Of a stretch of 57,967 nt of DNA, positions 19,602 through 53,836 are shown piece by piece. A model generated the notes under the pieces. That model was not told the origin of the DNA and did not search any database. It saw only the letters and a list, made by a program, of their open reading frames with translations. Position numbers and translations under genes: made by a program. Positions within the stretch are counted from its first letter, which is position 1. Every line of letters starts with the position of its first letter. The stretch is from NCBI GenBank assembly GCA_001783215.1, contig MFRA01000006.1:1-57967 (forward strand), read 5' to 3'. Origin of the DNA: Candidatus Magasanikbacteria bacterium RIFOXYD1_FULL_40_23 (GTDB lineage: Bacteria > Patescibacteriota > Patescibacteriia > Magasanikbacterales > GWA2-37-8).

Positions 19602-19841
19602 CTAGGAAATATGTATAACCAGAGCGGTGACAAAAAGAGCTATAGTAAAGGAGCAAATGAATGCACAGATAATCATCGTGCCAATTCCGCTGCTGTTGCC
19701 GGGGCTACCACTCTTCATTAGTATGGCAGACATCACCAAACCGGCGCCTAGTAGAATTGCGGCTAAGACTATGGGTAAGAAAAGGCCGGTAACTACACCT
19801 GCTGCTGCGCAAATAACCGAAACAGTGATTGTCCAAAGCAT
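19602..19841 (-). CDS. Small orphan membrane protein with strong SD
   Basis: 79 residues from the ATG at 19841, which has GGAGG 8 nt upstream (ATGGAGGATGCGATC then ATG). It has three hydrophobic segments: LWTITVSVICAAAGVVTGLF, a second Ala/Leu/Gly-rich helix (PIVLAAILLGAGLVMSAILM) and a third (GTMIICAFICSFTIALFVTA). The loop between helices 2 and 3 is GSPGNSSG. No family recognised. It sits between gyrB and secE with its own 3' hairpin. The clear SD sets it apart from the flanking core genes, which have none; the same arrangement precedes the gene at 22347. Confidence 0.7.
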   Translation of the reverse strand: MLWTITVSVICAAAGVVTGLFLPIVLAAILLGAGLVMSAILMKSGSPGNSSGIGTMIICAFICSFTIALFVTALVIHIS

Positions 19842-19884
19842 GATCGCATCCTCCATTGTGTTTGTTGGAGACAATTAACATAAC

Positions 19885-19924
19885 AAAAAAACATCCTACT
19901 GTAAATACAGTAGGATGTTTTTTT
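19885..19924 (-). terminator. Terminator after gyrB
   Basis: Perfect 19-bp stem with a 2-nt loop (arms AAAAAAACATCCTACTGTA and its complement) ending in seven Ts; works on either strand. Confidence 0.93.
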
Positions 19925-19933
19925 AATTAAAAT

Positions 19934-22141
19934 TTATATATCCAAATTAGCCACACTCTTAGCATGAGTCTGGATAAAGTTCTTGCGAGGGCCTACTTCG
20001 TCGCCCATAAGTATTTCAAATACTTCGTTGGCCAAAGCAGCGTCTTCTACAGTCACGCGTTTCATCATGCGGTTTTTTGGGTTCATGGTAGTTTCCCAAA
20101 GCTGTTCTGGGTTCATTTCTCCCAAACCTTTGTAGCGCTGGATGTTTACTTTAATTCCGTTCACTTCTAATCCTTGAACTTCATTTTCTTCTCCTTCTTT
20201 TGCCTCTGCTTCAGCAGGCTCTTCATTTTTTTCTTCTTTGGATTTTTTAGTCGCTGCAGCTTTGGCACCGGCTGTTGGTCCAACTATTTCTGCAAGTATC
20301 TTTTCTTTCTCTTCGTCATTATATGCATAGCGCATGTTTTTGCCATACTTCAAACTATATAGTGGCGGCTGGGCAATAAGAATATGTCCGCCAGAAATAA
20401 GAGTAGGGTAGTAGCGATAGAAAAATGTAAGAAGAAGTGTGCGGATATGGGCGCCATCCACATCGGCATCGGTCATGATTACCAGTCTGTGATAGCGCAG
20501 TTTGGTAATATCAAACTGTTCGCCGATGTTTGTGCCCATGGCGATAATAAGAGATTTTAATTCGTTGTTGGTAAGAATTTTATCTAGGCGAGCGCGTTCT
20601 ACATTTAGCACTTTACCACGCAATGGCAAGATAGCTTGGTGTTCGCGGTCGCGCCCTTGTTTGGCACTACCACCGGCAGAGTCTCCCTCTACTATAAATA
20701 GTTCGGATTCTTCGGCATGGCGACTACTGCAGTCGGCCAATTTACCAGGCAAAGTAAATCCTTCCAAAGCGCCTTTGCGTAGAATGGTATCGCGAGCCAT
20801 TTTGGCAGCGTTGCGTGCACGAGCGGAAAGTAAACATTTTTCTACAATTCCTTCGGCATCCTTCGGGTGTTCTTCCAAGAAAATTAAGAAAGCGTCGTTC
20901 ATTACTGCTTCTACCGCGGCCTTTACTTCGGTGTTTCCAAGTTTGGCTTTGGTCTGGCCTTCAAATTGAGGTTCAGTAACTTTTATAGAGACTATACAGG
21001 TTAAGCCTTCACGGACGTCTTCGCCGGTAAGGTTGGAATCTTTTTCTTTTAGGAAGCCTTTGTTGCGAGCGTAACTGTTTAGACTTCGAGTAAGAGCGGT
21101 GCGGAAACCAGCAACGTGTGTACCACCTTCTGGATTGTAAATATTATTTGTGAAAGCAGAAAGCAATTCGTTGAATTCGTTGTTATATTGCAAAGCAACT
21201 TCTACTTTTACATCGTCTTGTTCTTTTTCTATATAAAAAACATTTTCGTTTTTTACTTCGTTGTTTTGGTTTAGGTGACGTACATAAGAAGCGATACCGC
21301 CTTCGAAATAAAATCCGTAAGTTGGGCTAGGGGAGGAAATAGCGGTTTTGTCGTCTGCTTTTTCTTGGCCTTCGCGCTTGTCGGTAATAGAAATACGAAT
21401 ACCTTTGGACAAGTATGCTTGTTGACGAATATGATCTACGATTGTTTTCCATTCGTAGTCTATAGTTTCAAAAATAGTATCGTCGGCGCGGAATGTAATG
21501 GTAGTACCGCGATCTTTGCAATTGCCAATTTCTCTAGCTTTTTTTACAGGCTTACCACCATCTCTAAATTCTTGTAACCAAACTTTGCCATCACGGTGAA
21601 CTTCGGCTTTGGTATGAGTAGATAGGGCGTTTACTACAGACACACCCACACCGTGCAAACCACCGGAAACTTTATAACTTCCAGCATCAAATTTACCACC
21701 AGCGTGTAGTTTGGTCATTACAACCTCCAGTGCGCTAACACCCATTTGCGGATGAATATCTACAGGAATACCGCGGCCGTTGTCTCTTACTTCTATATAA
21801 TGATCTGGTAAAAGAGCTATATCTATTTGGTCACAAAAACCAGCCATAGATTCGTCTATGGAGTTGTCTACCACTTCCCAGATAAGGTGGTGAAGACCAA
21901 CCGGACCGGTGGAGCCAATATACATGCCCGGGCGACGACGTACGGCTTCTAGTCCTTCTAAGACAGTAATATTTGAAGCGCTATAATTGGCATCGGCTTT
22001 GTCGGAAACTTTGGCCTTTGCTTTGCCGGCAGCTTTTGCTTTGGCGAAAGCTGGATTTATTTTTGGAGCTTCTGTTTCTATTGGTTTTTCTTCTTCTTTT
22101 TTTGGAGAGATTCTTCCCTTTTCTACTTTTTTGATTGGCAT
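19934..22141 (-). CDS. gyrB: DNA gyrase subunit B
   Basis: 735 residues. About 45 residues of Lys/Glu/Ala-rich N-terminal extension precede the GHKL ATPase domain ([48 protein letters not shown]). Then come the transducer domain, TOPRIM ([36 protein letters not shown]) and the C-terminal [19 protein letters not shown]. An acidic, Lys/Glu-rich insertion of about 45 residues lies between TOPRIM and that terminal motif. With GyrA it introduces negative supercoils. A ParE identity cannot be fully excluded without gyrA context, but the [10 protein letters not shown] ending favours GyrB. Start ATG lacks an SD. Confidence 0.94.
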
Positions 22142-22217
22142 ACAATTTGATGATACATGATATACACATCAGGATACACTTGGATCGTGTATGTGAATAG
22201 TGAATTTTGATACAAAT

Positions 22218-22246
22218 ATTTTATCATATATATGTACAACGAGCAA
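22218..22246 (-). promoter_or_regulatory. Putative promoter of gyrB
   Basis: On the minus strand: TTGCTC (22241-22246), 17-bp spacer, TAAAAT (22218-22223), giving a leader of about 70 nt. Confidence 0.6.
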
Positions 22247-22346
22247 GAGTCTTATTTTGATTAATTTTATATATTTTGGTAGCCTGTAGATAAGAGAAAC
22301 CTAGCCTCGAGGGAGCGGGTAAAAAATTTCACGATGGAGGATGCTC

Positions 22347-22832
22347 ATGTCAGCAGACTATCTACGGGAAGTGTTTTATGCATTCATGCTTTTAACACCA
22401 TGGCTCGGTGCACTTTTCTTTGTCTTACCCACACTGTTGTTTTTCCTTATTAGATTGAAGCAGAAAAGAAGGGAAGAGAGGGTGTGTGAGACTCAAGGTC
22501 TGGTGACCTGGATGACAACAGAAACACATACAAATGATGTTGCGAAGACTGCGATAACTCTACAAGATCATAGAAAGAACCAGATGAAATGGGTCTTTGT
22601 GGGGAAGTACGACAAACTTCCTGTTTCGGTCAAGGTGGGTAGTGTGGTGCGAATCAAGTATTTGCTTCCCCCTGATAGTAAAGGCTTGTATTTGCAAGTG
22701 GAAGCCTTGGAAGTAACAGACTTGGATATGAAGGTTTTTGAAACGGAGCAGAAGCTTTTGAGTCTTCGGGTGTTGACCCGCGATATTCGTGGCGGTGAGT
22801 TGCCCGAGGGTACTAGGGACGAGTTGGGCTAG
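22347..22832 (+). CDS. Orphan membrane protein with one N-terminal helix region
   Basis: 161 residues from the ATG at 22347, chosen because GGAGG lies 6 nt upstream (GATGGAGG-ATGCTC-ATG). A long hydrophobic region (about 8-38, YAFMLLTPWLGALFFVLPTLLFFLI) is followed by a basic stop-transfer (RLKQKRREER). A soluble beta-rich domain follows (WVFVGKYDKLPVSVKVGSVVRIKYLLPP, then LYLQVEALEVTDLDM), vaguely like small OB or DUF3592-type modules, though I cannot assign it. First of three orphan genes in a row between gyrB and rodA. It ends with its own terminator. Confidence 0.75.
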   Translation: MSADYLREVFYAFMLLTPWLGALFFVLPTLLFFLIRLKQKRREERVCETQGLVTWMTTETHTNDVAKTAITLQDHRKNQMKWVFVGKYDKLPVSVKVGSVVRIKYLLPPDSKGLYLQVEALEVTDLDMKVFETEQKLLSLRVLTRDIRGGELPEGTRDELG

Positions 22833-22861
22833 GAATATTTAGAAGTTTCTAAGGGGTTGGC

Positions 22862-22897
22862 GCCGGCACATGTGTGTATGTGTCGGCTTTATTTTTT
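22862..22897 (+). terminator. Terminator after the 22347 gene
   Basis: GCCGGCACAT pairs with ATGTGTCGGC (one G.T pair), followed by TTTATTTTTT. Confidence 0.88.
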
Positions 22898-22977
22898 ATG
22901 CAAAGCGAGAGAAGTGAAAGTTTATTTTCATTTCCGAGCGTGCATGAATAAATGCCTTATTATTTTTTTAACAGATA

Positions 22978-23006
22978 TTGACAATTTGCCCCTTTTGTGC
23001 TATACT
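22978..23006 (+). promoter_or_regulatory. Near-consensus promoter of the 23185 gene
   Basis: TTGACA (22978-22983), 17-bp spacer, TATACT (23001-23006). Transcription would start near 23013 and leave a structured leader of about 170 nt. Confidence 0.88.
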
Positions 23007-23086
23007 GATTTAGTTAGTGTAAAAGCTAACTTTGCTCTTTTTAAAATGAAAGGAAATTGAAGAAACCATAAAGAACCTCGGACCCA

Positions 23087-23157
23087 TATTGGTCGAGACG
23101 TCATTGCCCTTAGTGAGGGTAAAAATGTCTCGATCAGCCGGTGATAATCATCGGTCT
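23087..23157 (+). promoter_or_regulatory. Two-hairpin leader before the 23185 gene
   Basis: TCGAGAC (about 23092-23098) can pair with GTCTCGA (about 23127-23133). A second hairpin, CCGGTGAT with ATCATCGG, follows at about 23141-23157. An upstream ATG (23125) is buried in the first stem. The gap 22898-23184 otherwise holds only the promoter. Confidence 0.5.
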
Positions 23158-23184
23158 GGTCCAACTTCTTACATGGGGGAACAC

Positions 23185-23352
23185 ATGCGCGCTTTCGACA
23201 ACGACTACATCACCTCTCTCAAGCTCCGGGTTGTCTCTCTGCCCAAGGTCGACTTCGACCATCCCAAGTTCCTGATCGCGATGCAGATCTTCGTCTACTG
23301 CCTGGCATACCTGCCGGCGGTGGGGATCGTTCTGCTGACCCTTCTCGCCTAG
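23185..23352 (+). CDS. Orphan 55-residue membrane protein with C/G-ending codons
   Basis: 55 residues beginning MRAFDNDYITSLKLRV and ending in one transmembrane helix (FVYCLAYLPAVGIVLLTLLA). From the ATG at 23185 nearly every codon ends in C or G, while upstream in-frame codons mostly end in A or T. Together with GGGGGA 4 nt upstream this decides the start against the ATG at 23125. Codon use is very unlike the surrounding core genes, suggesting transfer or selection for strong expression. No family recognised. It has its own promoter and is followed by hairpins. Confidence 0.75.
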   Translation: MRAFDNDYITSLKLRVVSLPKVDFDHPKFLIAMQIFVYCLAYLPAVGIVLLTLLA

Positions 23353-23390
23353 TACTTGTACTAGGATCACTCTCTTCACCATTCCTTCCA

Positions 23391-23433
23391 TTCCAGATCG
23401 GCCGTCTGGTAGTCCCTTCGCGGACACGGCCAC
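23391..23433 (+). other. Hairpin downstream of the 23185 gene
   Basis: GGCCGT and ACGGCC enclose a GTCCC-TTCG-CGGAC-like centre. There is no clear T-run. The 315-bp gap 23353-23667 contains this stem and the three hairpins listed next, and no gene that I can support. Confidence 0.5.
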
Positions 23434-23470
23434 ATTCCATTGTTTTTGATTTATTTCAAAGGCAGCGGGA

Positions 23471-23505
23471 AAAATACAACTCCAATTATTCTGGAGTTGT
23501 ATTTT
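23471..23505. terminator. Bidirectional-type terminator hairpin
   Basis: Perfect 14-bp stem AAAATACAACTCCA / TGGAGTTGTATTTT with a 7-nt loop. Confidence 0.85.
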
Positions 23506-23512
23506 ATTAGCG

Positions 23513-23534
23513 GCTCACAATTTTTATTGTGAGC
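23513..23534. other. Small perfect hairpin in the 23.5-kb gap
   Basis: GCTCACAAT / ATTGTGAGC, 9-bp perfect stem, 4-nt loop. Reminiscent in form of an operator palindrome, but no regulator is nearby. Confidence 0.5.
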
Positions 23535-23571
23535 AATAGTGGTATATATCGGCGGAGCCGATACTGCTTCT

Positions 23572-23629
23572 AAAAAACCCGCCCAGGCACCCCATTCGTT
23601 TTAGGCGAATGGGGTCGGGTTTATTTTTG
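23572..23629 (+). terminator. Terminator just upstream of the metalloprotease gene
   Basis: Inner stem ACCCCATTCG/CGAATGGGGT (23589-23598 with 23606-23615) is extended by AAACCCG/CGGGTTT across an 7-nt bulge, followed by ATTTTTG. It shields the next gene from read-through. Confidence 0.85.
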
Positions 23630-23642
23630 CGTCCATTACATA

Positions 23643-23648
23643 TATAAT
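23643..23648 (+). promoter_or_regulatory. -10 element of the metalloprotease gene
   Basis: Perfect TATAAT with only a weak TTTATT 17 bp upstream, inside the preceding terminator. It would give a leader of only about 13 nt consisting mostly of the SD (ATGGAGGTAGTACC). Confidence 0.55.
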
Positions 23649-23667
23649 AAATTATGGAGGTAGTACC

Positions 23668-24414
23668 ATGCGCGTTCATTTCATTTTCGCCTTGGCTTTG
23701 AGCCTTGGTGCTTGCGGGAGCAATTCCCATAATATCAATGATTCCTCGGTTACCGGTGCAAACGTAGGAACATCAGACAAAGATAATCATAAGACCGACG
23801 CGCCAGTGGATTTTCGTTTCCCTATCTATCTTGTTCCAGACGATAACTTCTGGTCGGGATGTTCGGATCCGTCTACCATTTTTGGCGAATCGTGTCGTGC
23901 AGATAGGGTGTCTGAGTTGGAGAGCGGAGTAGAGCAATGGCTTGCTTATTTCCCTCTGGCCGATAGGCCGGTAATTATGGTGGTAGAAAAAGAAAATCTA
24001 CCGGCCGACGTAACCAATCTTCAGATTATTGATCTCTATCTGGATGATAGTCGTTGCAAGGGGGTAGATATTCCGCCCTGCTTTACCCTTTGGGCTTGCT
24101 ATGAACATTCTCCAGAAGATATTGTGTTTATGAAGGATGAGTACATTACGTCTCAAGTTGTGGCTCATGAGTTAGGGCACGCTTTTGGATTGCCGCACAC
24201 TGAATGGCTAAACGAGGGTTGTGCTTCGCCCATTATGACTACGCCGGTGCAATCCAAGTTTGTTACAGATTTAGATATGCAGTTGCTCTGTCGGAAACAT
24301 CCGGAAATATCTTGTCCGATAAGTCCGGGAAGTTGGCAGGGAACTCTAATTGATACGGTATCGTGTGTTAAGTACCGGGAGCCGAAACAGGAGTCAGAAA
24401 ACACATGCAAATAG
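23668..24414 (+). CDS. Metzincin-like zinc metalloprotease lipoprotein (orphan)
   Basis: 248 residues. The N-terminus is a lipoprotein signal (FIFALALSLGAC, lipobox LGAC with Cys16). An Asn/Ser/Asp-rich linker precedes a catalytic domain with HELGHAFGLPH at residues 167-177. This is the extended metzincin zinc motif HExxHxxGxxH, and a Met-turn candidate (SPIM, Met190) lies 13 residues later. This fits a matrixin-like endopeptidase anchored outside the cell. Ten or so other cysteines suggest disulfides. Strong SD (GGAGG) 8 nt before the ATG. Flanked by terminators on both sides, so it is a self-contained unit. Substrate unknown; a role on host or neighbour surfaces is inference. Confidence 0.85.
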   Translation: MRVHFIFALALSLGACGSNSHNINDSSVTGANVGTSDKDNHKTDAPVDFRFPIYLVPDDNFWSGCSDPSTIFGESCRADRVSELESGVEQWLAYFPLADRPVIMVVEKENLPADVTNLQIIDLYLDDSRCKGVDIPPCFTLWACYEHSPEDIVFMKDEYITSQVVAHELGHAFGLPHTEWLNEGCASPIMTTPVQSKFVTDLDMQLLCRKHPEISCPISPGSWQGTLIDTVSCVKYREPKQESENTCK

Positions 24415-24433
24415 TTTTGAAAAACCTAGACTA

Positions 24434-24467
24434 CCCACCTCTCAAAAAAGAAAGGTGGGATTTTTTT
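24434..24467 (+). terminator. Terminator after the metalloprotease gene
   Basis: CCCACCT/AGGTGGG stem followed by ATTTTTTT. Confidence 0.88.
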
Positions 24468-24516
24468 ACTTGGGTGTTTAAGAAAAGAGTTTTTTGGGGT
24501 ATACTAATAAATAGTT

Positions 24517-25509: not shown

Positions 25510-25517
25510 ATTAAATT

Positions 25518-26612: not shown

Positions 26613-26651
26613 CTTTTTAAAAAAGTATACAAAAAATCCTTTTCTCTCACT

Positions 26652-26828
26652 TCTTTAGTAGAAGTGAGCAAGAATCGCTCGCAAACCTTTATCACCCCAT
26701 TTTGTCAGCAAAACGGGGTGATACCCCAAAACTGCCTCGCGGATGTACTTATGTCTCGAACTGCCATCAGCTCTGTCTCACTTTTGTCCTGAACTCAAAC
26801 ACCTGTCTATAACAGGTGTTCTCAAACA
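26652..26828 (+). repeat. Copy B of the long hairpin-rich repeat
   Basis: 26670-26828 is the inverted counterpart of bases 1-159. The terminal hairpin differs: CTCACTTCT-TTAGT-AGAAGTGAG here, against a GCCGCTTTC/GAAAGCGGC stem in copy A, with the same TTTAGTA/TACTAAA centre. AGGACAAA at 26831 can pair with TTTTGTCCTG at about 26782-26791, so the fold extends past the repeated segment. It begins about 40 bp after the rodA stop and relates to rodA as copy A relates to RNase J. The 616-bp gap 26613-27228 is this repeat plus the region below. Confidence 0.85.
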
Positions 26829-27141: not shown

Positions 27142-27174
27142 ATTGTTCTACTAAAGAAAGCGGCTATATGTTTT

Positions 27175-27204
27175 TTGACAAAAATGCTCGCAGTTGTATA
27201 TAAT
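27175..27204 (+). promoter_or_regulatory. Near-consensus promoter of the 27229 gene
   Basis: TTGACA (27175-27180), 18-bp spacer, TATAAT (27199-27204), followed by a leader of about 20 nt with SD AAGGAG (27217-27222). It lies just after a partial copy of the TACTAAAGAAAGCGGC hairpin arm (27149-27164). Confidence 0.9.
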
Positions 27205-27228
27205 TATTTACCAACCAAGGAGATGTCT

Positions 27229-27495
27229 ATGCTGTCGTTCATTTCTAATCTGTCTGGGGTGGAGATTGCCCTTATCGTAGTTTCCTCTTGTCTCTACCTG
27301 CTTATCGGTTTTCTCTTCCAACAGAGGGAAGGGCACCACTGCAGTACGCCTAAGTGTGGCCGCTGGGAGAACGTGGCCTTGTGTTTGGGGTGGCTTTTGC
27401 TGTTGCCTCTTGGTCTGGCCTTTAACACATATCAGAATTTCAAAGCAAATCAACGAGCTCCGCTGCCTGTTGCAGAGACGCTACCGCCTTGCTAG
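27229..27495 (+). CDS. Orphan two-helix membrane protein
   Basis: 88 residues from the ATG at 27229, fixed by SD AAGGAG 6 nt upstream and by the promoter. Two transmembrane helices (about 12-30, IALIVVSSCLYLLIGFLF; about 50-66, ALCLGWLLLLPLGLAF) are separated by a short loop with two His and two Cys (HHCSTPKCGRW), which could bind a metal or form a disulfide. The tail is Pro-rich and ends in Cys. No family recognised. Its own consensus promoter and strong SD make it one of the self-contained orphan units of this window. Confidence 0.75.
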   Translation: MLSFISNLSGVEIALIVVSSCLYLLIGFLFQQREGHHCSTPKCGRWENVALCLGWLLLLPLGLAFNTYQNFKANQRAPLPVAETLPPC

Positions 27496-27612
27496 CTGTA
27501 TTTTAATACCTGGAAGAGCGGACAAAACCCTCTATTTCACTATGGTATATGTAGCCAAAGTGGGGTAGGGGGTGTTATTATTTAACAGCCAGTCTATTCT
27601 AGGCTAAACCGC

Positions 27613-27641: not shown

Positions 27642-27660
27642 TAGTCCATATATTAGTTCC

Positions 27661-27726: not shown

Positions 27727-27733
27727 AAAATAT

Positions 27734-28087: not shown

Positions 28088-28097
28088 CCAAAACATT

Positions 28098-34074: not shown

Positions 34075-34401
34075 ATGTCGCATTTTTTTCTCCCCGAGAG
34101 CTTGGTAGATTCTTATGGCGCTCGTTTCCCTTCGGCTTCGGAGTTGGACCACATGATGGCCATCCGAGGCGTGTTGGTTCGTTGGGTTAAATCGCCGAAG
34201 ATTTCATTGCATGCCCGCGAACAATTGAGCAGGGCTGGTGATTGGGTAAAGGAACAGGTCGAGACATATACCGGCAAGGAGTTCAAAGATATCCCACTTG
34301 CCCCCGAATCTTTGGTGGATCACTATCGCGACTTCGTTTCGCAGAGCCTGGATTGGCTCTATGTCATCTGGACGCTGCTTCCTCTTGATTCTGGTAACTA
34401 G
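34075..34401 (+). CDS. Orphan soluble protein
   Basis: 108 residues from the ATG at 34075, which has GAGGTGAGGT 6-15 nt upstream; an in-frame GTG at 34033 has none. It is soluble and rich in helix-forming and Trp residues (ELDHMMAIRGVLVRWVKSPK, GDWVKEQVETYTGKEF, SLDWLYVIWTLLPLD), probably a small helical bundle. No family recognised. TTGACA at about 33948 with TAGGGT 17 bp downstream could be its promoter. A GC-rich hairpin follows. Codons are richer in C/G than those of adjacent rpsB. Confidence 0.7.
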   Translation: MSHFFLPESLVDSYGARFPSASELDHMMAIRGVLVRWVKSPKISLHAREQLSRAGDWVKEQVETYTGKEFKDIPLAPESLVDHYRDFVSQSLDWLYVIWTLLPLDSGN

Positions 34402-36504: not shown

Positions 36505-37863
36505 ATGTTTGCGTCTTTTTTAGAGAAAAAGATGAATATAACCAAAAGGTTAGCATTCGTCTTTTTAGTTGGGCTATTAAGCTTAACATTTTTAATTTTT
36601 AAAATTAATAATGTTTACGCAGCTGGTGCGTTGCCGCCATTAGGTTCTACTGTAACCACCACAGTTTTGTCCGCTCAAAGTATTCGGGTGACTTTGGTGC
36701 CCGATCCAGCCAGCACCTCTACGGTCTGGTCTTTTGCATACTCTACCAATAATGTAGCAAGAACAGTTGTAAATGTTACTACTGCCACAACAACACTCAC
36801 ATATGATTTTACAGGGCTAGCAACCAACACGGCATATTATTTGGCTGTTGCTTCTGGTGATGGCATGACTACCTCGAGCTATGTTACTTCTAGTGCGGTT
36901 TATACTTTAGCGGCAGCTGGAGTTGCTCCAACTGTAGATACCCCAGCAGCAACTTCGCTTTATTTAACTATTAATGCGGGCTCAAACCCAGCGAGTACTA
37001 GTTATGCTATTTTTAACACCACTACAGGAGCGTTTGTAGGTCTAACAGATACAGCTACAGGGGCTGCTACTAGCAGTGTGGATTGGCAACTTGCCAGTAC
37101 CTGGAACCCAGGCGGTGGATTACAAATTACAGGTTTAACTGCAAATACTTCTTATCAGTTTGTGGTAATTCCTCGAAACGGAGATGGTGTTGCTGCCGCA
37201 ACTTCTACTGCTAGCACCGCTACAACTACTCTTGCCAGCACTCCTTCTTCCGCGTCTGTCACGGGCGTGGCTAATGGATTCAATTTTAGTTGGAGCGGAG
37301 ACTCTACAAGTTATTATGCTGAAGATATTACCGTAAGCATTAATTCTGGATGGACAACGGATACAACTCTTTCCGTTGGCGGCATTAATTGTGGCACAAC
37401 CCATTCTTTCCGCGTTAAGGGACGCAACGGTGCCTTGGTAGAAACAGACTGGTCTTCCACTGTTAGTGCTACCACTGGCGCTTGTGGTTCGGCTATACTT
37501 GTAAATACTACACCAGCCGTTCCAGCTATTCCGGCAGTTCCTGGTGTTTCTCCTGCTGTGCCTGCTATCCCAGCTGTTCCTGGTAATCAAGCTTCTTCTG
37601 GAAGTTGGGATGTGCCTGGAGCATCAAAAGCTTCTCCGGTAGCTGTGTTTGTGCACACTCTGCGTGTGGGATCAAAAGGTGAAGAAGTTAGGGCGTTGCA
37701 AGCAAAACTACGAGAATTGGGTTATTTTAAATATCCTACAGACACAGGTTATTTTGGTGGTGTTACCAGAGCTGCGGTTGTAGCTTTCCAAAAAGCCCAA
37801 GGATTAAAACCTTTCCCAGGTTGGGTTGGCCCTGCTACCCGTTCTACCCTAAATAGCCTATAG
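36505..37863 (+). CDS. Secreted protein with Ig/Fn3-like repeats and a peptidoglycan-binding domain
   Basis: 452 residues. A signal peptide (RLAFVFLVGLLSLTFLIF...VYA) is followed by two or three Thr/Ser/Ala-rich beta-sandwich modules of Fn3-like type (SIRVTLVPDPASTSTVWSFA; GLTANTSYQFVVIPRNGDG). Then comes a Pro/Ala/Val hinge with repeated PAIPAVPG and a C-terminal PG_binding_1 domain (LRVGSKGEEVRALQAKLREL, GYFGGVTRAAVVAFQKAQGL, GWVGPATRSTL). It is probably wall-attached by the last domain and displays the Fn3-like part outside. Start at 36505 gives a 9-residue extension; ATG 36532 would suit the signal peptide better. Confidence 0.88.
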   Translation: MFASFLEKKMNITKRLAFVFLVGLLSLTFLIFKINNVYAAGALPPLGSTVTTTVLSAQSIRVTLVPDPASTSTVWSFAYSTNNVARTVVNVTTATTTLTYDFTGLATNTAYYLAVASGDGMTTSSYVTSSAVYTLAAAGVAPTVDTPAATSLYLTINAGSNPASTSYAIFNTTTGAFVGLTDTATGAATSSVDWQLASTWNPGGGLQITGLTANTSYQFVVIPRNGDGVAAATSTASTATTTLASTPSSASVTGVANGFNFSWSGDSTSYYAEDITVSINSGWTTDTTLSVGGINCGTTHSFRVKGRNGALVETDWSSTVSATTGACGSAILVNTTPAVPAIPAVPGVSPAVPAIPAVPGNQASSGSWDVPGASKASPVAVFVHTLRVGSKGEEVRALQAKLRELGYFKYPTDTGYFGGVTRAAVVAFQKAQGLKPFPGWVGPATRSTLNSL

Positions 37864-40227: not shown

Positions 40228-40650
40228 ATGGATCAAGAGCTCGGTCAAAAAAAGTTTTTTATTCCCAGTAAAAAATGGTGGTTTATTCTGCAATGCGGGA
40301 TGATTTTGGTTTTATTTATAGTAGGCTTGATCAGAGGAGGAGATATTATCATTCTATCTCACCGAATAGCTGAAGCCCTGCTTGGTTTAGCCGTGCTTAT
40401 AATTGGTTATCCGTGGGGCGTTTATTTTTTGTTTTTTCCCGATCGCCATAACATTGGGAGTGTCGGCTCACGTTTTTATATTTTAATAGCTTTAAGCATT
40501 GTTTATTATATATCATTTTTTGTTATTATTAATTATGTTTACAAATACAAAAAGTTTGCAAGATTGCTTGCCTTAGCGTTACTATTAGCAATGTTACTCA
40601 ATTTTGCAGGCTGTGTCAGAGTTGTTGATATTCCTTTAATTATTACATAA
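40228..40650 (+). CDS. Uncharacterised four-helix membrane protein
   Basis: 140 residues. A short polar N-terminus (MDQELGQKKFFIPSKKWW) is followed by four hydrophobic helices (about 19-36, 43-70, 85-104 and 108-128) and a C-terminal FAGCVRVVDIPLIIT. It lies tightly between gap (8 bp) and aspS (1 bp) in the same orientation, with AT-rich core-type codons, so it is probably a genuine member of that transcript. The family is not recognised and no function is proposed. Confidence 0.7.
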   Translation: MDQELGQKKFFIPSKKWWFILQCGMILVLFIVGLIRGGDIIILSHRIAEALLGLAVLIIGYPWGVYFLFFPDRHNIGSVGSRFYILIALSIVYYISFFVIINYVYKYKKFARLLALALLLAMLLNFAGCVRVVDIPLIIT

Positions 40651-42097: not shown

Positions 42098-42487
42098 TTA
42101 CAATTTAAGCACTATTCCGAAAAAAAGGCGTAGAATAAGAAATGGTACGATCATCATGATTGCTCGATTGAACAGGATTTGTCCAACGGGCACAGAAGAT
42201 CCCTTGAATATTTTTTTACTGTCAGTATATGACCAGACAAACGGAGCGAGCAGGGCGATACAACTAGCATCGGCCAAATTTTCCGGCAAGTCTAGTAAGT
42301 GGATTACTAGTGTGTAAACTGCCATAATTACACCGAAAGTAATCCATGAGAAATCTATCCAAAAATTAAGTGAGCGGTGGCGCTTATAGGTTTCTGCGTT
42401 GTATGCCGTTTTTTCCAGACGGGAAATGAACCAGCAGAAACCCAGTGCCATTAAGCCTAATGTGCAGGTTGCAACTAAAAAGAGCAT
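42098..42487 (-). CDS. Orphan four-helix membrane protein with strong SD
   Basis: 129 residues. Start ATG at 42487 with GAGGAGG 5-6 nt upstream and a promoter 40 bp before. Hydrophobic segments lie at about 2-20 (LFLVATCTLGLMALGFCWF), 44-67, 76-88 and 104-126. Charged loops are RLEKTAYNAETYKRHRS and TDSKKIFKGSSVP. No family recognised. It is a single gene between aspS and scpA, transcribed against them. The strong SD and promoter mark it as one of the orphan units. Confidence 0.72.
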   Translation of the reverse strand: MLFLVATCTLGLMALGFCWFISRLEKTAYNAETYKRHRSLNFWIDFSWITFGVIMAVYTLVIHLLDLPENLADASCIALLAPFVWSYTDSKKIFKGSSVPVGQILFNRAIMMIVPFLILRLFFGIVLKL

Positions 42488-44960: not shown

Positions 44961-45080
44961 CTAGGAGTCGTTGAGCTTAGCCCAGAAGTTGGTGATTTTG
45001 TCCATCGACTGGTCGATCAGTTGATCGCAACGATTGTTGATCCACTCGATCGCCAGCAGAATGCTTTTCAGAATCTGCAT
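44961..45080 (-). CDS. 39-residue amphipathic orphan peptide
   Basis: A short frame on the minus strand: ATG at 45080 with AGGAGG 5 nt upstream, stop TAG at 44961-44963. It encodes 39 residues starting MQILKSILLAIEWINN and ending TNFWAKLNDS, with a hydrophobic/charged pattern of one amphipathic helix and one Cys. Codons mostly end in C/G. The consensus promoter, strong SD and GC-rich 3' inverted repeat argue that it is expressed. It fills the otherwise geneless interval 44825-45174. Whether it acts at a membrane, as a toxin, or as a small regulator cannot be said. Confidence 0.7.
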   Translation of the reverse strand: MQILKSILLAIEWINNRCDQLIDQSMDKITNFWAKLNDS

Positions 45081-46347: not shown

Positions 46348-46385
46348 GTTAATATAATTAAATTAATTTTATTAAATCAAACCAT

Positions 46386-47219: not shown

Positions 47220-47229
47220 AAAAACATCT

Positions 47230-47269
47230 AAAAGAGCCCTATAAATCGTCAAGAAGGGGGCTCTTTTTT
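47230..47269 (+). terminator. Terminator after the SIMPL gene
   Basis: AAAAGAGCCC / GGGCTCTTTTTT with an 18-nt loop. Confidence 0.88.
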
Positions 47270-47316
47270 GTTTAAAGAGTATATGATATAATTGTTAAGA
47301 ATAAACTAACGTCCAT

Positions 47317-48561: not shown

Positions 48562-48579
48562 AATTAAGATAAGAAATGT

Positions 48580-50130
48580 ATGTCAAAGATTACAACGACT
48601 CTTTTAGTCATCGTGGACGGATGGGGTGTGGGCGATCCCAAAGACCCTAACAATCCAGTTACACCAGAAACTGCACCCAACTATTTTTCATTTTTAAAAA
48701 AATATCCAAATTCTAAATTAGAAGCCAGTGGCGAAAGCGTTGGTTTGTTTAAAGGACAAGAGGGTAATAGTGAAGCTGGCCATTTGAATTTGGGAGCAGG
48801 CAGGGTTGTAAAACAAGATGCGTTGTTTATATCAGATTCTATAAAAGATGGTACGTTCTACAAAAATCCCGCCTTCCACGAAGCCTTTCAGCATGTTAGA
48901 AAAAATAAATCCGCAGTACATTTAATGGGATTGTTATCAAATCATAGTAGCGCTCATTCATACCCAGAGCATTTGTATGCTTTGCTTAACCTGCTCAATA
49001 CGGAAAATATAAAAAAAGTGTATCTGCATCTTTTTACTGACGGCAGAGACTCTGGTCGTTATGAGGCGCACAGACATTTCAATATTCTAGAAAAATTTTT
49101 TCATGGTAATGAAAAAGTAGCCACAATAATGGGTCGTTATTATGCAATGGACAGAAACAAGAATTGGGAGCGTACAAAATTAGCCTACGAAGCTATGGTT
49201 TTGGGTAAAGGAGAAAAATTTACTAGCACCGCAGAAGTTCTTCGAGATAGTTATAACAAAGGAGAGTCAGATGAGTTTTTATTGCCATGCGTTATTACCG
49301 AAAAAGGGAAGCCAGTAGGCACAATTAAAAACAACGATGCTATAATTTTTTTCAACTTACGTAGTGACCGCGCTCGTCAGCTTACCAAAGCGTTTGTGCA
49401 GCCAGATTTTGCAAAAGTTAATCCGGGTTCATTTAGGCGTTCTAAATATTTAAAAAATATAAGTTTTGTCGGTCTGACAGATTTTGGTCCGGATCTGCCA
49501 AATGTAGTCAGTGCTTTTCCAAGCCGCGATGTAAAAAATAGCTTGGTACAAGTTTTGTGTCCAAGAAAACAAATGTATATAGCTGAATCAGAAAAATTTG
49601 CTCATATTACTTATTTTTTAAATGGTGGCTATGCGCAGCATTTTTGTGATGAAAATTGGATAAAGATAGATTCTACCAATGTAAAGAATTATGCCGATAA
49701 TCCAGAAATGAGCGCAGAAAAGTTAGCCGACTATGTAATTGGGGCCGTAGAGTCTGGTCAGCACGAGTTTATTGCGGTAAATTTTGCCAATATGGATATG
49801 GTTGGCCATACCGGTAATTTGCACGCTGCCCAAAAAGCAGTGCGTGTAGTAGACTCTGCCATAGCTCGTATAATGAAAGTTTTAATAAAAAATAATGGTC
49901 AAGGAATTATTACTGCCGACCATGGAAATATAGAAGAGATAGTAAAACCAATAAGTGGCGAACCAGATACGGAACATTCTACCAATCCTGTACCATTTAT
50001 TTTGATAAATTGCCCGATAAAAACTCCGAAAAAATTACCAGATGGTAAATTAGCAAACGTAGCGCCCACTATTTTAAAGATGATGGGAATAAACAAGCCA
50101 GTAGAGATGACGGCTAAAAGTTTGATTTAG
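48580..50130 (+). CDS. gpmI: 2,3-bisphosphoglycerate-independent phosphoglycerate mutase, copy 1
   Basis: 516 residues, alkaline phosphatase superfamily. Metal and catalytic residues are kept: VDGWGVGD, GNSEAGHLNLGAGR (nucleophile Ser), NFANMDMVGHTGN, ITADHGNIEE and DTEHSTNPVPF. The substrate loops deviate from the usual pattern: NHSSAHSYPEHLYAL where DGGVHSHxxHL is common, DGRDSGRYEAHRHF instead of DGRDTPP-type, FFNLRSDRARQL with Ser for Pro. It interconverts 3- and 2-phosphoglycerate. Tandem with copy 2 and clearly diverged from it. Confidence 0.93.
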   Translation: MSKITTTLLVIVDGWGVGDPKDPNNPVTPETAPNYFSFLKKYPNSKLEASGESVGLFKGQEGNSEAGHLNLGAGRVVKQDALFISDSIKDGTFYKNPAFHEAFQHVRKNKSAVHLMGLLSNHSSAHSYPEHLYALLNLLNTENIKKVYLHLFTDGRDSGRYEAHRHFNILEKFFHGNEKVATIMGRYYAMDRNKNWERTKLAYEAMVLGKGEKFTSTAEVLRDSYNKGESDEFLLPCVITEKGKPVGTIKNNDAIIFFNLRSDRARQLTKAFVQPDFAKVNPGSFRRSKYLKNISFVGLTDFGPDLPNVVSAFPSRDVKNSLVQVLCPRKQMYIAESEKFAHITYFLNGGYAQHFCDENWIKIDSTNVKNYADNPEMSAEKLADYVIGAVESGQHEFIAVNFANMDMVGHTGNLHAAQKAVRVVDSAIARIMKVLIKNNGQGIITADHGNIEEIVKPISGEPDTEHSTNPVPFILINCPIKTPKKLPDGKLANVAPTILKMMGINKPVEMTAKSLI

Positions 50131-50136
50131 AATATA

Positions 50137-51720
50137 TTGAGTATGAGTTACAAACCAGTGGTTTTAGTTATTATGGATGGGTGGGGTGTTGCTCCAAATG
50201 TTGATGGTAATGCCATTACCAAAGCAAACACACCCAATCTCACAAAATTTCTAAAAAATTATCCTACCATGACTATTCATGCTTCTGGAAACGAAGTAGG
50301 TTTAATGTTTGGTGAAATGGGAAATTCGGAAGTTGGGCACTTAAACATTGGCGCTGGCAGAGTTTATTACCAAAGCTGCCCTAGAATAAATAAGTCTATA
50401 GAAGAAGGGGAGTTTTTTGAAAATCCTGCATTTTTATCTGCGTTAGACAAAGTAAAAGAAAAAAATTCCAAATTACATTTAATCGGGTTGGTAAGTTCTG
50501 GCAATGTTCATTCTAGCAACCAACACTTATATGCGCTTTTGGAATTGTGCAAAAAGAAAAAGTTAACCAAAAATGTATTTATACATGCAATTCTAGATGG
50601 GCGCGATGCTTTGTATAATTCAGGCCATGAATTTGTCCAAGAATTGCAAGAAAAAATATCTGAAATAAAAGTAGGAAAGATTGCTACTATATCCGGACGC
50701 TATTTTGCTATGGATAGAGACAATCGTTGGGATAGATGTGAGAAGGCTTACCGGGCTATGGCTGAAGGTGTGGCCGATAGATTTAGTGAGGATCCACTTC
50801 AGGCAATAGAAGAGGCGTATGCTCAAAAAAACTACGACGAAGAATTTATTCCTACTGTCCTAACTTCTCGGGGTAAACCTCTTACCACCATAGACAAAGA
50901 CGATGCAATAATTTTTTTCAATTTTAGACCAGACAGAGCGCGTCAACTTGCCGAAGCTTTTGCTTTGCCTTCTTTTAATAAATTTACCAAAGAATATTTT
51001 AGGGAGTTAACAGTTGTAACAATGACTGAATACGAAAGAGATTTGCCGGTAGCCGTGGCTTTTGCGCCTACGGTTGTGCACAATTCTTTGGCCGAAGTAA
51101 TTAGTAAAGCCGGTTTAAAACAAATGCATGTAGCCGAGACCGAAAAGTATGCTCACGTTACCTTCTTTTTAAATGGTACTGTAGAAGAGGTATTCCCAGG
51201 AGAAGAAAGATTGCTTATACCGTCAGCTCGCGTGGCTAGTTATGACCAAAAACCGGAGATGTCCGCTTTAGAAATTACCAAAGAGTTAGGCAAAATTATA
51301 GATTCTGGTAAGTTTGATTTTATAGTTGTAAATATTGCCAATGCTGATATGGTGGGCCATACGGGCAATCTGGCAGCGGGAATAGAAGCTTGCGAAGTAA
51401 ATGATAAATGTTTAGGCGAAATTGTGAGTCATACTTTGGCCCAAAATGGGGTAGTGGTAATTACAGCTGACCATGGCAATGCCGAAGAAATGACGAATTT
51501 GCAAACAAGCGAAATAGACAAAGAGCATTCCACCAATCCAGTGCCACTTATTATTATTGGCAAGGACTTTTTGGGGCAAGCTGGTGCTGCCGGGGATCCG
51601 CCCGAAGGAGATCTTAGCTTAATGCAGCCAGTAGGTGTGCTCGCAGATGTGGCGCCTACAGTGCTTAAGTTGCTCGGCATAGATCAGCCGGAAGAAATGA
51701 CAGGACAGGCGCTAATTTAG
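50137..51720 (+). CDS. gpmI: 2,3-bisphosphoglycerate-independent phosphoglycerate mutase, copy 2
   Basis: 527 residues. All expected motifs: IMDGWGVAPN, GEMGNSEVGHLNIGAGR, LDGRDALYNSGHEF, SGRYFAMDRDNRWDR, FFNFRPDRARQLAEAF, AETEKYAHVTFFLNG, NIANADMVGHTGN, ITADHGNAEEM and DKEHSTNPVPLI. It is closer to the canonical enzyme than copy 1. The gap to copy 1 is 6 bp, so the two are coexpressed. Near its C-terminus is an Asp/Gly/Pro-rich insertion (GQAGAAGDPPEGDLSLMQP). Two complete copies in such a compact genome are unexpected. Confidence 0.95.
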   Translation: MSMSYKPVVLVIMDGWGVAPNVDGNAITKANTPNLTKFLKNYPTMTIHASGNEVGLMFGEMGNSEVGHLNIGAGRVYYQSCPRINKSIEEGEFFENPAFLSALDKVKEKNSKLHLIGLVSSGNVHSSNQHLYALLELCKKKKLTKNVFIHAILDGRDALYNSGHEFVQELQEKISEIKVGKIATISGRYFAMDRDNRWDRCEKAYRAMAEGVADRFSEDPLQAIEEAYAQKNYDEEFIPTVLTSRGKPLTTIDKDDAIIFFNFRPDRARQLAEAFALPSFNKFTKEYFRELTVVTMTEYERDLPVAVAFAPTVVHNSLAEVISKAGLKQMHVAETEKYAHVTFFLNGTVEEVFPGEERLLIPSARVASYDQKPEMSALEITKELGKIIDSGKFDFIVVNIANADMVGHTGNLAAGIEACEVNDKCLGEIVSHTLAQNGVVVITADHGNAEEMTNLQTSEIDKEHSTNPVPLIIIGKDFLGQAGAAGDPPEGDLSLMQPVGVLADVAPTVLKLLGIDQPEEMTGQALI

Positions 51721-51729
51721 CTTAAAATA

Positions 51730-51757
51730 TTGACAAGAGCATTATTTTGTGTAATTA
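51730..51757 (+). promoter_or_regulatory. Putative promoter of the 51819 gene
   Basis: TTGACA (51730-51735), 16-bp spacer, TAATTA (51752-51757). Confidence 0.65.
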
Positions 51758-51818
51758 TAAGGTTAGAAACGGTTTCTAATCTATCTCTTAACCCAATTAA
51801 TCCTGCAAGGAGGATTTT

Positions 51819-52076
51819 GTGAAGTCAGAAAATGCGACCGATCGTAAACTTCAGACGCTGCTTTGGAATGTGCTTGAAAAGGCTAAGAGGCACGGCTCGA
51901 GGAGTGATCAAGTGAAGAATTTCATACAGATGCGTGAAGATGATAAGGAGTTCGTGGAGCTTGCCGCAACTTTGATAATCCTTTTCGAGACAAAGCGACA
52001 GGAATTGAATGCTCTTATGGGTGAGGACGGTCTCGTATATGTGCCGGATTTGCGCAAGGAAGTTACGACAACCTAA
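51819..52076 (+). CDS. Orphan small helical protein, GTG start with strong SD
   Basis: 85 residues from GTG 51819, preceded by AAGGAGG (51807-51813) at ideal spacing. It is soluble, highly charged and mostly helical (DRKLQTLLWNVLEKAKRHGS, QVKNFIQMREDDKEFVELAA, LIILFETKRQELNALMG) with a short extended tail. It could be a small helical bundle or an interaction partner. No family recognised. It has its own putative promoter and a terminator, and codons with more C/G than gpmI upstream. Confidence 0.72.
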   Translation: MKSENATDRKLQTLLWNVLEKAKRHGSRSDQVKNFIQMREDDKEFVELAATLIILFETKRQELNALMGEDGLVYVPDLRKEVTTT

Positions 52077-52107
52077 CCACTCGTCATTTTTTAGAACAGT
52101 GCAGTGT

Positions 52108-52138
52108 CCGTCCGAGAAAATTTGGGCGGATTTTTTTA
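52108..52138 (+). terminator. Terminator after the 51819 gene
   Basis: TCCGTCC / GGGCGGA (one G.T pair) followed by seven Ts; it overlaps the 3' end of the convergent DHH gene. Confidence 0.88.
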
Positions 52139-53284
52139 AGCGGATGGCAGAAGTATTTTCTTAATTTTTTCTATAACTTCAAGCTCTACTTCTTTAATAG
52201 TTTTTCCGCTTACCGAAAAAGTGGCAGTTCTTTTGTTGCCTTCTGGTTGGTAGCTTTGCAAAAGTGTTTTGGCATCATGGTGTTTATCTGCGCAAAGAAA
52301 GCCATGCACTTTATTTTCTCCGCTAATATTTTCATTAAGAAGTAGAATTATTTTGGCTTCGGGAGAGTTGTTTACTAGTTCATCAGAAAGTCCTTTTAAT
52401 TCTTCTTCTGTAGCTCCAGCTCGAGCAAAATCTTCTTTGGTAATAGTGGTCCATACTAACCCAAGTTTTGAGTCGCTTTGCATATGGGTAAGGGCTGTGC
52501 CCCAAATACGAAGAGAGGCCATAGATTTGGTGCGGTAAAGATTTTTTACAATTTTTTCTCTGTCTGCGCCCATAGTTATCAGCTGGCTAGCATTGGCCAG
52601 GGTGGCTGGGCTAACGTTGGCAGTTTTGAAGCTTTGAGTTTGGCTTATCATGCCGGTAAGCAAAAAGGTGGCAATGTCTGCATCGATATCGTGAGAAGAT
52701 ATCTGCATTAAAGTTTTGTAAATATTTTCCGAAACAGAAGTGGCGGTTAGGTCAACAAAATTAATTTGCCCAAAATGTTCGTTGCCAGGATGGTTGTCAA
52801 AATTAATTATTGGTACTTTATAAAACAAATCAGTGTTATTAAAAAACACGCTTCCAAGCGATTCCAAATCTTGGGAGTTAAGAGTTATAATTAAATCATA
52901 TTTTAATCCGGATTGAGCGGTGCGCAGTTCGTTTTTGGTTAGAGTTCCTTGCTTTGGTGTTAAATAAATAGAAAGCCAGTTGTCTTTGATATCGTAACTC
53001 AATGTATCAATTTTGACATTGCTAATATCTACTTTCAAAATAAATTTTTGCAGATGAGATATCTGTGGTTGGATTTCTTCTATACCCTTTAGGAAATTTA
53101 AGTTTTTTGGCGCCACAAAATTGTCGACAATTATGTCGGCTTGCTTATGGTGCTTTTCCAAGAATTTTTTCCAAGCCACGCCTCCGCAAATGGAGTCGGT
53201 GCTTTGGCTGGCACTAGTAACTATCAAAATATGCTGGCTCTTTTCTAGGATTTGGCGTAGTTGTTCTATTTCACTAAGGGCCAT
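52136..53284 (-). CDS. DHH-family phosphoesterase-like protein with degenerate active site
   Basis: 382 residues with the layout of NrnA-type oligoribonuclease/pAp phosphatases (DHH domain, then DHHA1-like domain). Key motifs are altered. The first metal motif reads ASQSTDSICGG (usually HxxPDxDAxGS). The Asp of the second is in TLNSQD, and the eponymous DHH is DNH (Asp163-Asn164-His165, in NFDNHPGN). The terminal GGHxxA is not recognisable (PEGNKRTATFSVSG). Other fold residues (LTATSVSENIYKTLMQI, ATFLLTGMISQTQSF) are kept. It may be inactive as a nuclease or use changed chemistry. Consensus promoter upstream. Confidence 0.8.
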   Translation of the reverse strand: MALSEIEQLRQILEKSQHILIVTSASQSTDSICGGVAWKKFLEKHHKQADIIVDNFVAPKNLNFLKGIEEIQPQISHLQKFILKVDISNVKIDTLSYDIKDNWLSIYLTPKQGTLTKNELRTAQSGLKYDLIITLNSQDLESLGSVFFNNTDLFYKVPIINFDNHPGNEHFGQINFVDLTATSVSENIYKTLMQISSHDIDADIATFLLTGMISQTQSFKTANVSPATLANASQLITMGADREKIVKNLYRTKSMASLRIWGTALTHMQSDSKLGLVWTTITKEDFARAGATEEELKGLSDELVNNSPEAKIILLLNENISGENKVHGFLCADKHHDAKTLLQSYQPEGNKRTATFSVSGKTIKEVELEVIEKIKKILLPSA

Positions 53285-53328
53285 GTTTTGGTTTAATTAA
53301 GAAAGGTGTTATTTACGAATAACAGGCT

Positions 53329-53357
53329 ATTCTAGCAGGGTTTTTGGGGGTTGTCAA
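53329..53357 (-). promoter_or_regulatory. Promoter of the DHH-like gene
   Basis: On the minus strand: TTGACA (53352-53357), 17-bp spacer, TAGAAT (53329-53334). Confidence 0.88.
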
Positions 53358-53398
53358 TTCTAGATAGTCGCACATGTATTTTTCATTTATAATATAGA

Positions 53399-53419
53399 AC
53401 CTCGGTGGTTAGCCGAGGT
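53399..53419 (-). terminator. Hairpin after the 53444 gene
   Basis: ACCTCGG / CCGAGGT with a 7-nt loop. On the minus strand it is followed by an AT-rich stretch (TCTATATTATAAATG) rather than a clean T-run. Confidence 0.55.
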
Positions 53420-53443
53420 CTGCCTGTCTTGTATTAGTAGAAC

Positions 53444-53836
53444 CTACCCTAGGATCAATTTTCTGAGTAGTACCAGCAATTCCATCGACATCAACACCAT
53501 CTGTCCGATAGATAGAAAGTAGAAGGTTCTGTGGAACACAAGGTTCACTGTGTCTGCTTCCGTATTTTCCGCCACCTTTTTGAAATAGAGGCGGAGAATG
53601 ATAATTTGTAATACCAACACCATTACGAATGCAAGCAGGCCAACCGCCTCTTCCAGCCCTTTGTTCGCATTTTCGTAAGTTGTGAAGATAAAGTAGGCGA
53701 TACCATCGCCCACTAGAAACAGCAATCCGAGCTTGAAATAGCGGCGTTCTGAAGTCTCGTTTTGGAGATCTGCTAGAAGCATTATTAATGAGTATGCTAG
53801 AGGCAAAAGAACAAAGATGGCGGCTGTTTGGGACAT
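53444..53836 (-). CDS. Orphan four-helix membrane protein
   Basis: 130 residues. Four hydrophobic segments: about 4-22 (TAAIFVLLPLAYSLIMLLA), 36-54 (LGLLFLVGDGIAYFIFTTY), 63-87 and 104-128. Loops are short and charged (QNETSERRYFK, KKVAENTEADTVN). No family recognised. The SD is AAGAGGG, close to the ATG, weaker than in the other orphans. A consensus promoter lies about 100 bp upstream with small hairpins in the leader (CTACAC-AATC-GTGTAG). Single gene between the DHH-like gene and valS. Confidence 0.7.
   Translation of the reverse strand: MSQTAAIFVLLPLAYSLIMLLADLQNETSERRYFKLGLLFLVGDGIAYFIFTTYENANKGLEEAVGLLAFVMVLVLQIIILRLYFKKVAENTEADTVNLVFHRTFYFLSIGQMVLMSMELLVLLRKLILG

Follow-up and report, generated by a model that had tools for sequence, protein, structure and literature searches.

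Why should about ten short genes, scattered one by one through a stretch of bacterial chromosome, each be preceded by a Shine–Dalgarno (SD) sequence when nearly all the genes around them start without one? The question is raised by 57,967 nucleotides (nt) of contig MFRA01000006.1 from Candidatus Magasanikbacteria bacterium RIFOXYD1_FULL_40_23 (positions 1 to 57,967, or C6:1-57967 in a genome of 1.07 Mb and 8 contigs; hereafter the window). A preliminary description had set these genes, here numbered c1 to c10 in order along the window, apart from the core genes as a distinct class. We find that the genes of this genome fall into two start-signal classes, and that this division is linked to codon use and to conservation. 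The SD-led class probably consists, with a likelihood that we put at about 0.6, mostly of acquired single-gene units that have retained SD initiation in a lineage whose own genes start without SD and with U at position −1. Translation is poorly understood in Patescibacteria, which account for a large share of bacterial diversity, and a start signal that separates resident from accessory genes would offer a simple tool for finding accessory genes that have been missed; several of those in the window were passed over by the codon model.

Two classes of translation start

The analysis covered the window and 15 further stretches (285 kb, 27% of the genome), 343 kb together. Core genes were called with our own codon-based gene caller, and their starts are those that it predicted; SD strength is the duplex energy (kcal/mol) of the leader of a start with the 3′ tail of the genome's own 16S rRNA (GGATCACCTCCTTTCT), in which the anti-SD is intact. 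All ten candidates score between −8.3 and −13.7, compared with 2 of 260 core genes at −8 or stronger, one of these being a type IV secretion system (T4SS) pilin gene; among the 50 other open reading frames (ORFs) called in the window, a single 42-codon call reaches −6. Core starts are in fact depleted of SD, with a median of −0.5 as against −2.2 at all ATGs of the window, 3.5% of which (n = 1,645) reach −8. Because the division into core and SD class by codon score makes the 260-gene SD count, the −1T count and the transmembrane count given below partly circular, two tests blind to SD were used. In the first, which took the first ATG of ORFs of at least 120 amino acids (aa) and grouped them by codon score, an SD of −8 or stronger precedes 12 of the 37 ORFs with atypical codons and 3 of the 230 with typical codons (p = 3e-9); the corresponding counts for T at −1 are 15 and 194. 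A laxer variant that admitted any start gave 21 of 42 low-scoring and 55 of 231 typical ORFs (p = 0.001); the first-ATG version is the cleaner one because long ORFs have many inner starts. In the second, gaps between core genes held 46 ORFs of at least 130 aa where 3.5 were expected, 26 of them with a strong SD and several of the remainder antisense to those.

These counts also bear on whether the class might be made up of chance ORFs, or of false starts picked through an upstream SD-like string. Across the whole genome the bare pattern GGAGG-N4-9-ATG is only mildly in excess (114 sites versus 79 in reversed controls), c3 and c8 are short, and several gap ORFs are antisense shadows of others, all of which would fit such an artefact. 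Against it stand the excess of long gap ORFs just described and a total of 50 SD-led ORFs of at least 80 aa in the gaps versus 1.8 (s.d. 1.6) in shuffled gaps, or 36 versus 2.4 when the gene model was trained on each stretch alone, together with recognisable domains and relatives in a neighbouring genome. The shuffles thus rule out chance ORFs for the class, c3 and c8 excepted, and as a general account they are very improbable. Neither a continuous gradient of SD strength nor conservation of the units at the same loci in distant relatives, the two outcomes that the preliminary description had named as speaking against a separate class, was found.

Outside this genome the picture is less even. 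SD-led ORFs of at least 80 aa (expected numbers in parentheses) amount to 6 (0.8) and 6 (0.6) in the matching stretches of the genus mates G001 and G002, and to 3 (0.1), 3 (0.0) and 2 (0.5) in G008, G004 and G014; the stretches of G010 and G015 hold none, and the SD-led class is therefore not equally clear in every relative. With a threshold of 110 aa, 20 such ORFs were observed in this genome (0.2 expected); in samples whose short loci train the gene model poorly, the figures are 15 versus 1.2 in 40 phylum-wide stretches and, both weak, 8 versus 4.0 in Magasanikbacteria and 10 versus 3.8 in Uhrbacteria. Concealment of the SD in leader structure was considered and rejected, the leaders of five window units folding no better than shuffled sequences.

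The core genes share another signal. T precedes 219 of 260 core starts (84%), as against 34% of 1,571 internal in-frame ATGs, 17 of 47 starts of the SD class (all of at least 75 aa) and 2 of the ten window genes. The share is 77–85% in stretches of seven relatives. Short-locus models give lower values, namely 67% in Magasanikbacteria (n = 232 core starts), 56% in Uhrbacteria (n = 218) and 11–69% per stretch across the phylum; we therefore claim the rule for this genus and family only. Two window genes show that not every gene missing from relatives is SD-led: 40228-40650 (plus strand, 140 aa, intermediate codon score) is unmatched in the stretches of the seven relatives and yet has a core-type start without SD and with T at −1, and 36505-37863, unmatched in G001 and 44% identical in G002, likewise starts without SD and with T at −1.

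The core start signal would accordingly be UAUG in an AU-rich, G-poor leader, and resident genes would start on it in place of an SD. Leaderless core mRNAs were rejected, as no clear −10 peak lies just upstream of core starts. U at −1 can pair with A37 of the initiator tRNA, an extension of codon–anticodon pairing that the UAUG context resembles, and the −1U probably helps initiation in this way; what sets the present case apart is that 84% of core starts carry it, instead of an SD. Accessory genes, of foreign composition and without the −1U signal, would then rely on pairing between SD and anti-SD. Base biases upstream of SD-less starts have been described in a survey of 260 prokaryotes that examined the sequence around the starts of non-SD genes (Nakagawa et al. 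2017, PMC5397173); its section 14, however, names C and not T as the base favoured next to the start, and its table of phyla does not include Patescibacteria. No report of such a start-signal split in Patescibacteria was found in the openly licensed PMC literature, as judged mostly by titles and the openings of abstracts.

Acquired units or a fast-evolving resident class

Three of the ten proteins have three hydrophobic segments each: c1 (19602..19841, minus strand, 79 aa; SD GGAGG, −9.3), c7 (42098..42487, minus, 129 aa; AGGAGG, −11.6) and c10 (53444..53836, minus, 130 aa; GAAGAGGG, −10.2). Two such segments are present in c5 (27229..27495, plus, 88 aa; AAGGAG, −8.3), an N-terminal transmembrane segment in c2 (22347..22832, plus, 161 aa; GGAGG, −9.7), one transmembrane segment in c3 (23185..23352, plus, 55 aa; GGGGG, −8.4) and a lipobox in c4 (23668..24414, plus, 248 aa; GGAGG, −10.7). 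c6 (34075..34401, plus, 108 aa; GAGGTGAGG, −10.8) and c9 (51819..52076, plus, 85 aa; AAGGAGG, −11.2) are without transmembrane segments, and c8 (44961..45080, minus; AGGAGG, −13.7) encodes 39 aa; c8 and c3 are the least certain genes of the ten. Seven of the ten are thus membrane or lipoprotein-like, as first described. None scores above the cut-off in Pfam or NCBIfam, in keeping with the earlier statement that only a metalloprotease belonged to a familiar family: c4 has Reprolysin/metzincin matches below the cut-off, and its HELGHAFGLPH is presumably a metzincin-like motif.

Composition separates the class from its surroundings. SD-led ORFs have 48.3% GC, compared with 38.1% in the residual gaps and spacers and 38.9% in core genes, and the GC content at third codon positions (GC3) is 0.44–0.85 in the ten (0.85 in c3) and 0.317 (s.d. 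0.045) in 263 core genes, which bears out the C/G-ending codon use first noted. The difference between the GC of spacers and that of SD-led ORFs makes de novo birth from spacers unlikely.

The window is collinear in G001 and G002, whose gyrB genes are 92% and 89% identical to that of the present genome, and most of its core genes are 60–95% identical there. The junctions between these genes differ. The intervals (this genome/G001/G002) measure 481/127/145 nt at c1 and 523/9/145 nt at c7, 1121/67/1005 nt at c5, 350/102/588 nt at c8, 415/17/931 nt at c9 and 724/667/146 nt at c10, so that the junction is nearly empty (9–146 nt) in both mates for c1 and c7, in G001 for c5, c8 and c9, and in G002 for c10. 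Those of c2–4 (2375/985/2917 nt) and c6 (778/1458/792 nt) are not empty in either mate. The c6 junction holds other SD-led ORFs in G001 and only a 37-codon one in G002; at the c9 junction, G002 has an SD-led gene of 166 aa that is not significantly similar to c9. By tblastn, eight of the ten candidates are unmatched in G001 and G002, the search covering the matching stretches and not the rest of those genomes, and c8 has no match in the stretches of seven relatives. Presence and absence of units at collinear junctions is thus directly observed.

The remaining two candidates do have relatives at the same place in G002: c4 a 47% identical copy with an SD of −10.7 and an in-frame stop, and c5 two related SD-led genes. 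Some families are therefore older than the split from G002 and change fast. For c2, which has no tblastn match, the same place in G002 holds a 159-aa SD-led ORF whose leader looks alike by eye, without a significant match between the proteins. The proposal that genes were dropped singly into gaps is supported for many units, as at the collinear junctions of c1, c7 and c9, and by the foreign GC, but it does not fit c4 and c5.

Protein content was compared in a set of 46. It derives from the 47 SD-class genes of the −1T tally by removing three (one with N in its sequence, an ORF of L015 that begins with TTG, and an ORF antisense to c3) and adding two that encode 64 and 71 aa; some members may be false, and c3 and c8 belong to neither set. 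Pfam matches (E up to 0.01) have one member each in the 25 listed of 27 families, among them a Ser/Thr kinase, TruD, an IS1595 transposase, a LAGLIDADG (homing) nuclease, an isochorismatase, DUF454, DUF378, the phage GP30.3 family and ASCH; with PHROGs, ten families were matched, one of them by two members and the other nine by one each. Transmembrane segments are found in 12 of 46 proteins versus 96 of 263 core proteins (p = 0.18), and lipobox-like motifs, by a crude pattern, are commoner (6 of 46 versus 4 of 263). A membrane or surface specialisation of the class is thus not significant, and with functions this mixed the suggested role in surface or host interaction is not supported as a class property. 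Within 3.1 Mb of DNA searched by tblastn, three of the 46 matched outside their own genome: c4, the ASCH protein (in an Uhrbacteria locus) and DUF378; the matches of c5 in G002 were too short for this search.

Acquisition is favoured because the transposase, the homing endonuclease, the phage GP30.3 protein and the Ser/Thr kinase occur among the SD class (one each of the 46), and because the junctions are nearly empty or differently occupied in G001 and G002 while the core is collinear. The accessory class would then be large and built of compact units, each as a rule a lone short gene with an SD of its own and in many cases a terminator, and most of these units would have been gained or replaced one by one at junctions between conserved genes. 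Phage morons and single-gene cassettes of genomic islands are likewise single short genes of foreign composition, present or absent at one junction. The units described here resemble them in these respects and in the terminator found in half of the ten; they differ in lying between conserved chromosomal genes, with no ends recognised and no class-specific promoters shown.

Several observations weigh against acquisition as the main origin. The L004/L006 family, with four copies in this genome (SD −9.3, −9.1, −7.2 and −7.4, so that two of four reach −8) and one in G002 (−6.6), is absent from the 55 others of the 57 genomes searched and thus confined to these two. c4 and c5 date back at least to the divergence from G002 and evolve fast in place. 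Donor searches, which covered phages, plasmids, viral contigs and relatives, gave no match for c4 and c9 in phages, for c2 in plasmids, or for c4, c6, one L004 and one L011 protein in viral contigs. Nor were terminal repeats found at both ends of the c1, c7, c9 and c10 units; two inverted repeats seen in that search are hairpins.

A native origin is accordingly a possibility, although an unlikely one: the SD-led genes might be a resident, fast-evolving class in turnover hot spots, for which SD-led translation would serve regulation and not be left over from acquisition. The SDs kept at the same place by c4 and c5, the like leaders of c2, the copies of the L004/L006 family here and in G002, and the recurrence of the same unit form with other genes in G001 and G002 would all be expected from it. 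A GC content of 48% beside spacers of 38% would not be expected of long residents without codon selection, and neither the mixture of protein functions, transposase and homing endonuclease included, nor the eight candidates unmatched in both mates is readily accounted for. We infer that most of the units were acquired, and that their SDs function in the present host.

A separate observation concerns the 9.2-kb contig G000:C4 (locus L011, with masked bases), on which a series of short SD-led genes follow one another; the N termini of three resemble one another (MKVLKDGKF-like).

Extended SD sequences on a few resident genes

SD-led starts had been described as absent from the core. This is so for nearly all core genes, but those for bS21 (rpsU), HU, a type IV pilin, a T4SS pilin and DUF378 have SDs longer than those of the ten. 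The pattern AAGGRGGTG-N2-9-RTG occurs at four sites in the whole genome, each with the long SD AAGGGGGTGA, before the genes for HU (G000:C5:278163), type IV pilin (C1:223989), T4SS pilin (C3:40825) and DUF378 (C8:13901). Because the pattern is not above its reversed control (4 versus 8 here, 3 versus 9 in G002, 9 versus 7 in G001), the weight of these sites comes from the genes that they precede. In HU, T4SS pilin and DUF378 the energies are −19.0 to −19.6, and HU and both pilins have the extended SD in all three genus genomes. Further afield, an SD of −12 or stronger precedes 19 of 25 scored T4SS pilin orthologues, 13 of 30 DUF378 loci and 15 of 30 HU loci, most of the other HU loci having none, and all 30 HU loci carrying T at −1. 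For HU and DUF378 the long SD is mostly either full or wholly missing; in DUF378 it tracks sequence, being strong in 11 of 11 loci at least 58% identical to that of this genome and in 1 of 18 below that value.

A further case is rpsU (C6:98799, locus L066; further loci L067-L170), in which AAGTGAGGTGA stands before GTG with an energy of −16.7. Across 23 genomes of the order, all 24 true loci, found by Pfam after one false match was dropped, score −13.7 to −19.0. When each of 79 named loci is given its best in-frame start, an SD of −8 or stronger is found in 68 and one of −13 or stronger in 60; taking the start closest to the conserved motif instead gives 66 and 57. A strong SD is missing from rpsU in several Uhrbacteria. 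bS21 was found in 139 of 192 genomes of the phylum sample; 39 of 40 phylum stretches could be scored, with 18 at −12 or stronger, 3 between −12 and −8 and 18 weaker, and of 28 further loci 24 were scorable and 21 reached −12. For rpsU, T4SS pilin and DUF378, the energy quoted is the strongest among the in-frame starts close by. Loci that could not be parsed, L190 and L191 (rpsU) and L249 (T4SS pilin), were left out, as were L251, L263, L265 and L270; L111 gave no motif, and L174, L185 and L224 had no scorable start. The matches of this genome's bS21 among named genomes lie mostly in Candidatus Magasanikbacteria and Uhrbacteria, the nearest being 97% identical.

SD pairing should therefore still work in this cell, since the 16S tail is intact and extended SDs are in use at rpsU, HU and the pilin genes, and the coexistence of the scattered SD-led genes with the −1U starts suggests that one cell uses two routes of translation initiation. 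Extended pairing with the 16S tail has also been described in Staphylococcus aureus (PMC13009471); that organism is reported to rely on the extended SD, whereas here it marks a few resident genes.

The same combination of an intact anti-SD, an SD-depleted core and an rpsU whose extended SD exceeds about −13 kcal/mol in strength marks the bS21 system of Bacteroidota as described by McNutt et al. 2023 (PMC9976891), in which Flavobacterium johnsoniae ribosomes without bS21 favour rpsU and other strong-SD mRNAs. The present case concerns another phylum, has T at −1 as its core signal and is known from sequence alone. It also differs in extent: rpsU is typically the sole gene with a strong SD in Flavobacteriales according to that study, and here the genes for HU, pilins and DUF378 and a large accessory class are preceded by SDs too. 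A term search of the main text of PMC9976891 for Patescibacteria, CPR and Saccharibacteria found none of them named, and one of PMC10783764 did not find Patescibacteria.

A switch controlled by bS21, which would fit either origin of the genes, is thus conceivable, although rather doubtful. Ribosomes carrying bS21 would hide their anti-SD and read the SD-less −1U mRNAs, and those short of bS21 would read rpsU and the SD-led mRNAs, the accessory class included. The strong rpsU leaders of the order (24 of 24) and of most named loci, the depletion of SD in the core and the likeness to Bacteroidota argue for it. HU and pilins are usually abundant proteins and would hardly be expected to depend on a minority of ribosomes. 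The number of other strong-SD genes, the several Uhrbacteria without a strong SD on rpsU and the 18 of 39 phylum stretches weaker than −8 likewise speak against such a switch. A stricter form, with two distinct start systems in which bS21-bearing ribosomes read the −1U household mRNAs and SD-reading ribosomes under rpsU feedback serve the pilins, HU, DUF378 and the accessory pool, is somewhat less likely again; were it to hold, the level of bS21 would switch accessory expression on and off. The conserved extended SDs on rpsU, HU and the pilin genes suggest that translation is regulated outside Bacteroidota as well, in a manner reminiscent of the bS21 loop.

The anti-SD pocket of the Bacteroidota system involves Tyr54 of bS21 together with bS18 and bS6. 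In the bS21 sequences compared here, Tyr63 is the same in all 16 aligned relatives, and no PDB match was identifiable as a Bacteroidota protein on which Tyr54 could be located. By eye, at least 10 of the 79 named rpsU leaders have their SD within a short inverted repeat (for example CACCTGAGGAGGTG), as though masked by an anti-SD-like strand. T4SS-pilin-like stretches occur in many relatives, some near rpsU, within frames of about 640 to 4,400 aa; in G002 one lies at C8:141876-142238 within an open frame reported as 26,099 aa.

Promoters, terminators and further features of the window

Most of the ten genes had been credited with promoters of their own. Matches of at least 10 of 12 positions do precede six of them: c3 (22978-23006, 11/12, 179 nt upstream of the gene), c5 (TTGACA-18-TATAAT, 12/12, 27175-27204), c7 (42555-42528), c8 (45169-45141), c9 (51730-51758) and c10 (53967-53939). 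However, promoter-like sites are not in excess over shuffles in the two regions scanned (43 versus 35.0 and 36 versus 33.9), and near-consensus promoters stand before 15% of 122 first core genes and 13% of the 46 SD-class genes (3% and 1% in shuffles), so that promoters are not specific to the class. Private 3′ hairpins had been reported for several of the genes. Terminator-like hairpins follow five of the ten, c1 (19579-19547), c2 (22862-22887), c7 (42079-42048), c9 (52106-52131) and c10 (53420-53398), and exceed shuffles in both regions (29 versus 16.3 and 17 versus 9.9). A motif shared by c1 and c2, GGAGGATGC, is not enriched in the window (26 sites versus 30 expected).

Just after the promoter-like site of c9 lies a palindrome, TTAGAAACGGTTTCTAA (51763-51779), which could be a repressor operator. 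In relatives elsewhere in the order, for example G034:C5, G029:C3, G035:C16 and G048:C3, the match to GyrB falls into separate parts of a frame of about 1,070-1,930 aa, which suggests inteins.

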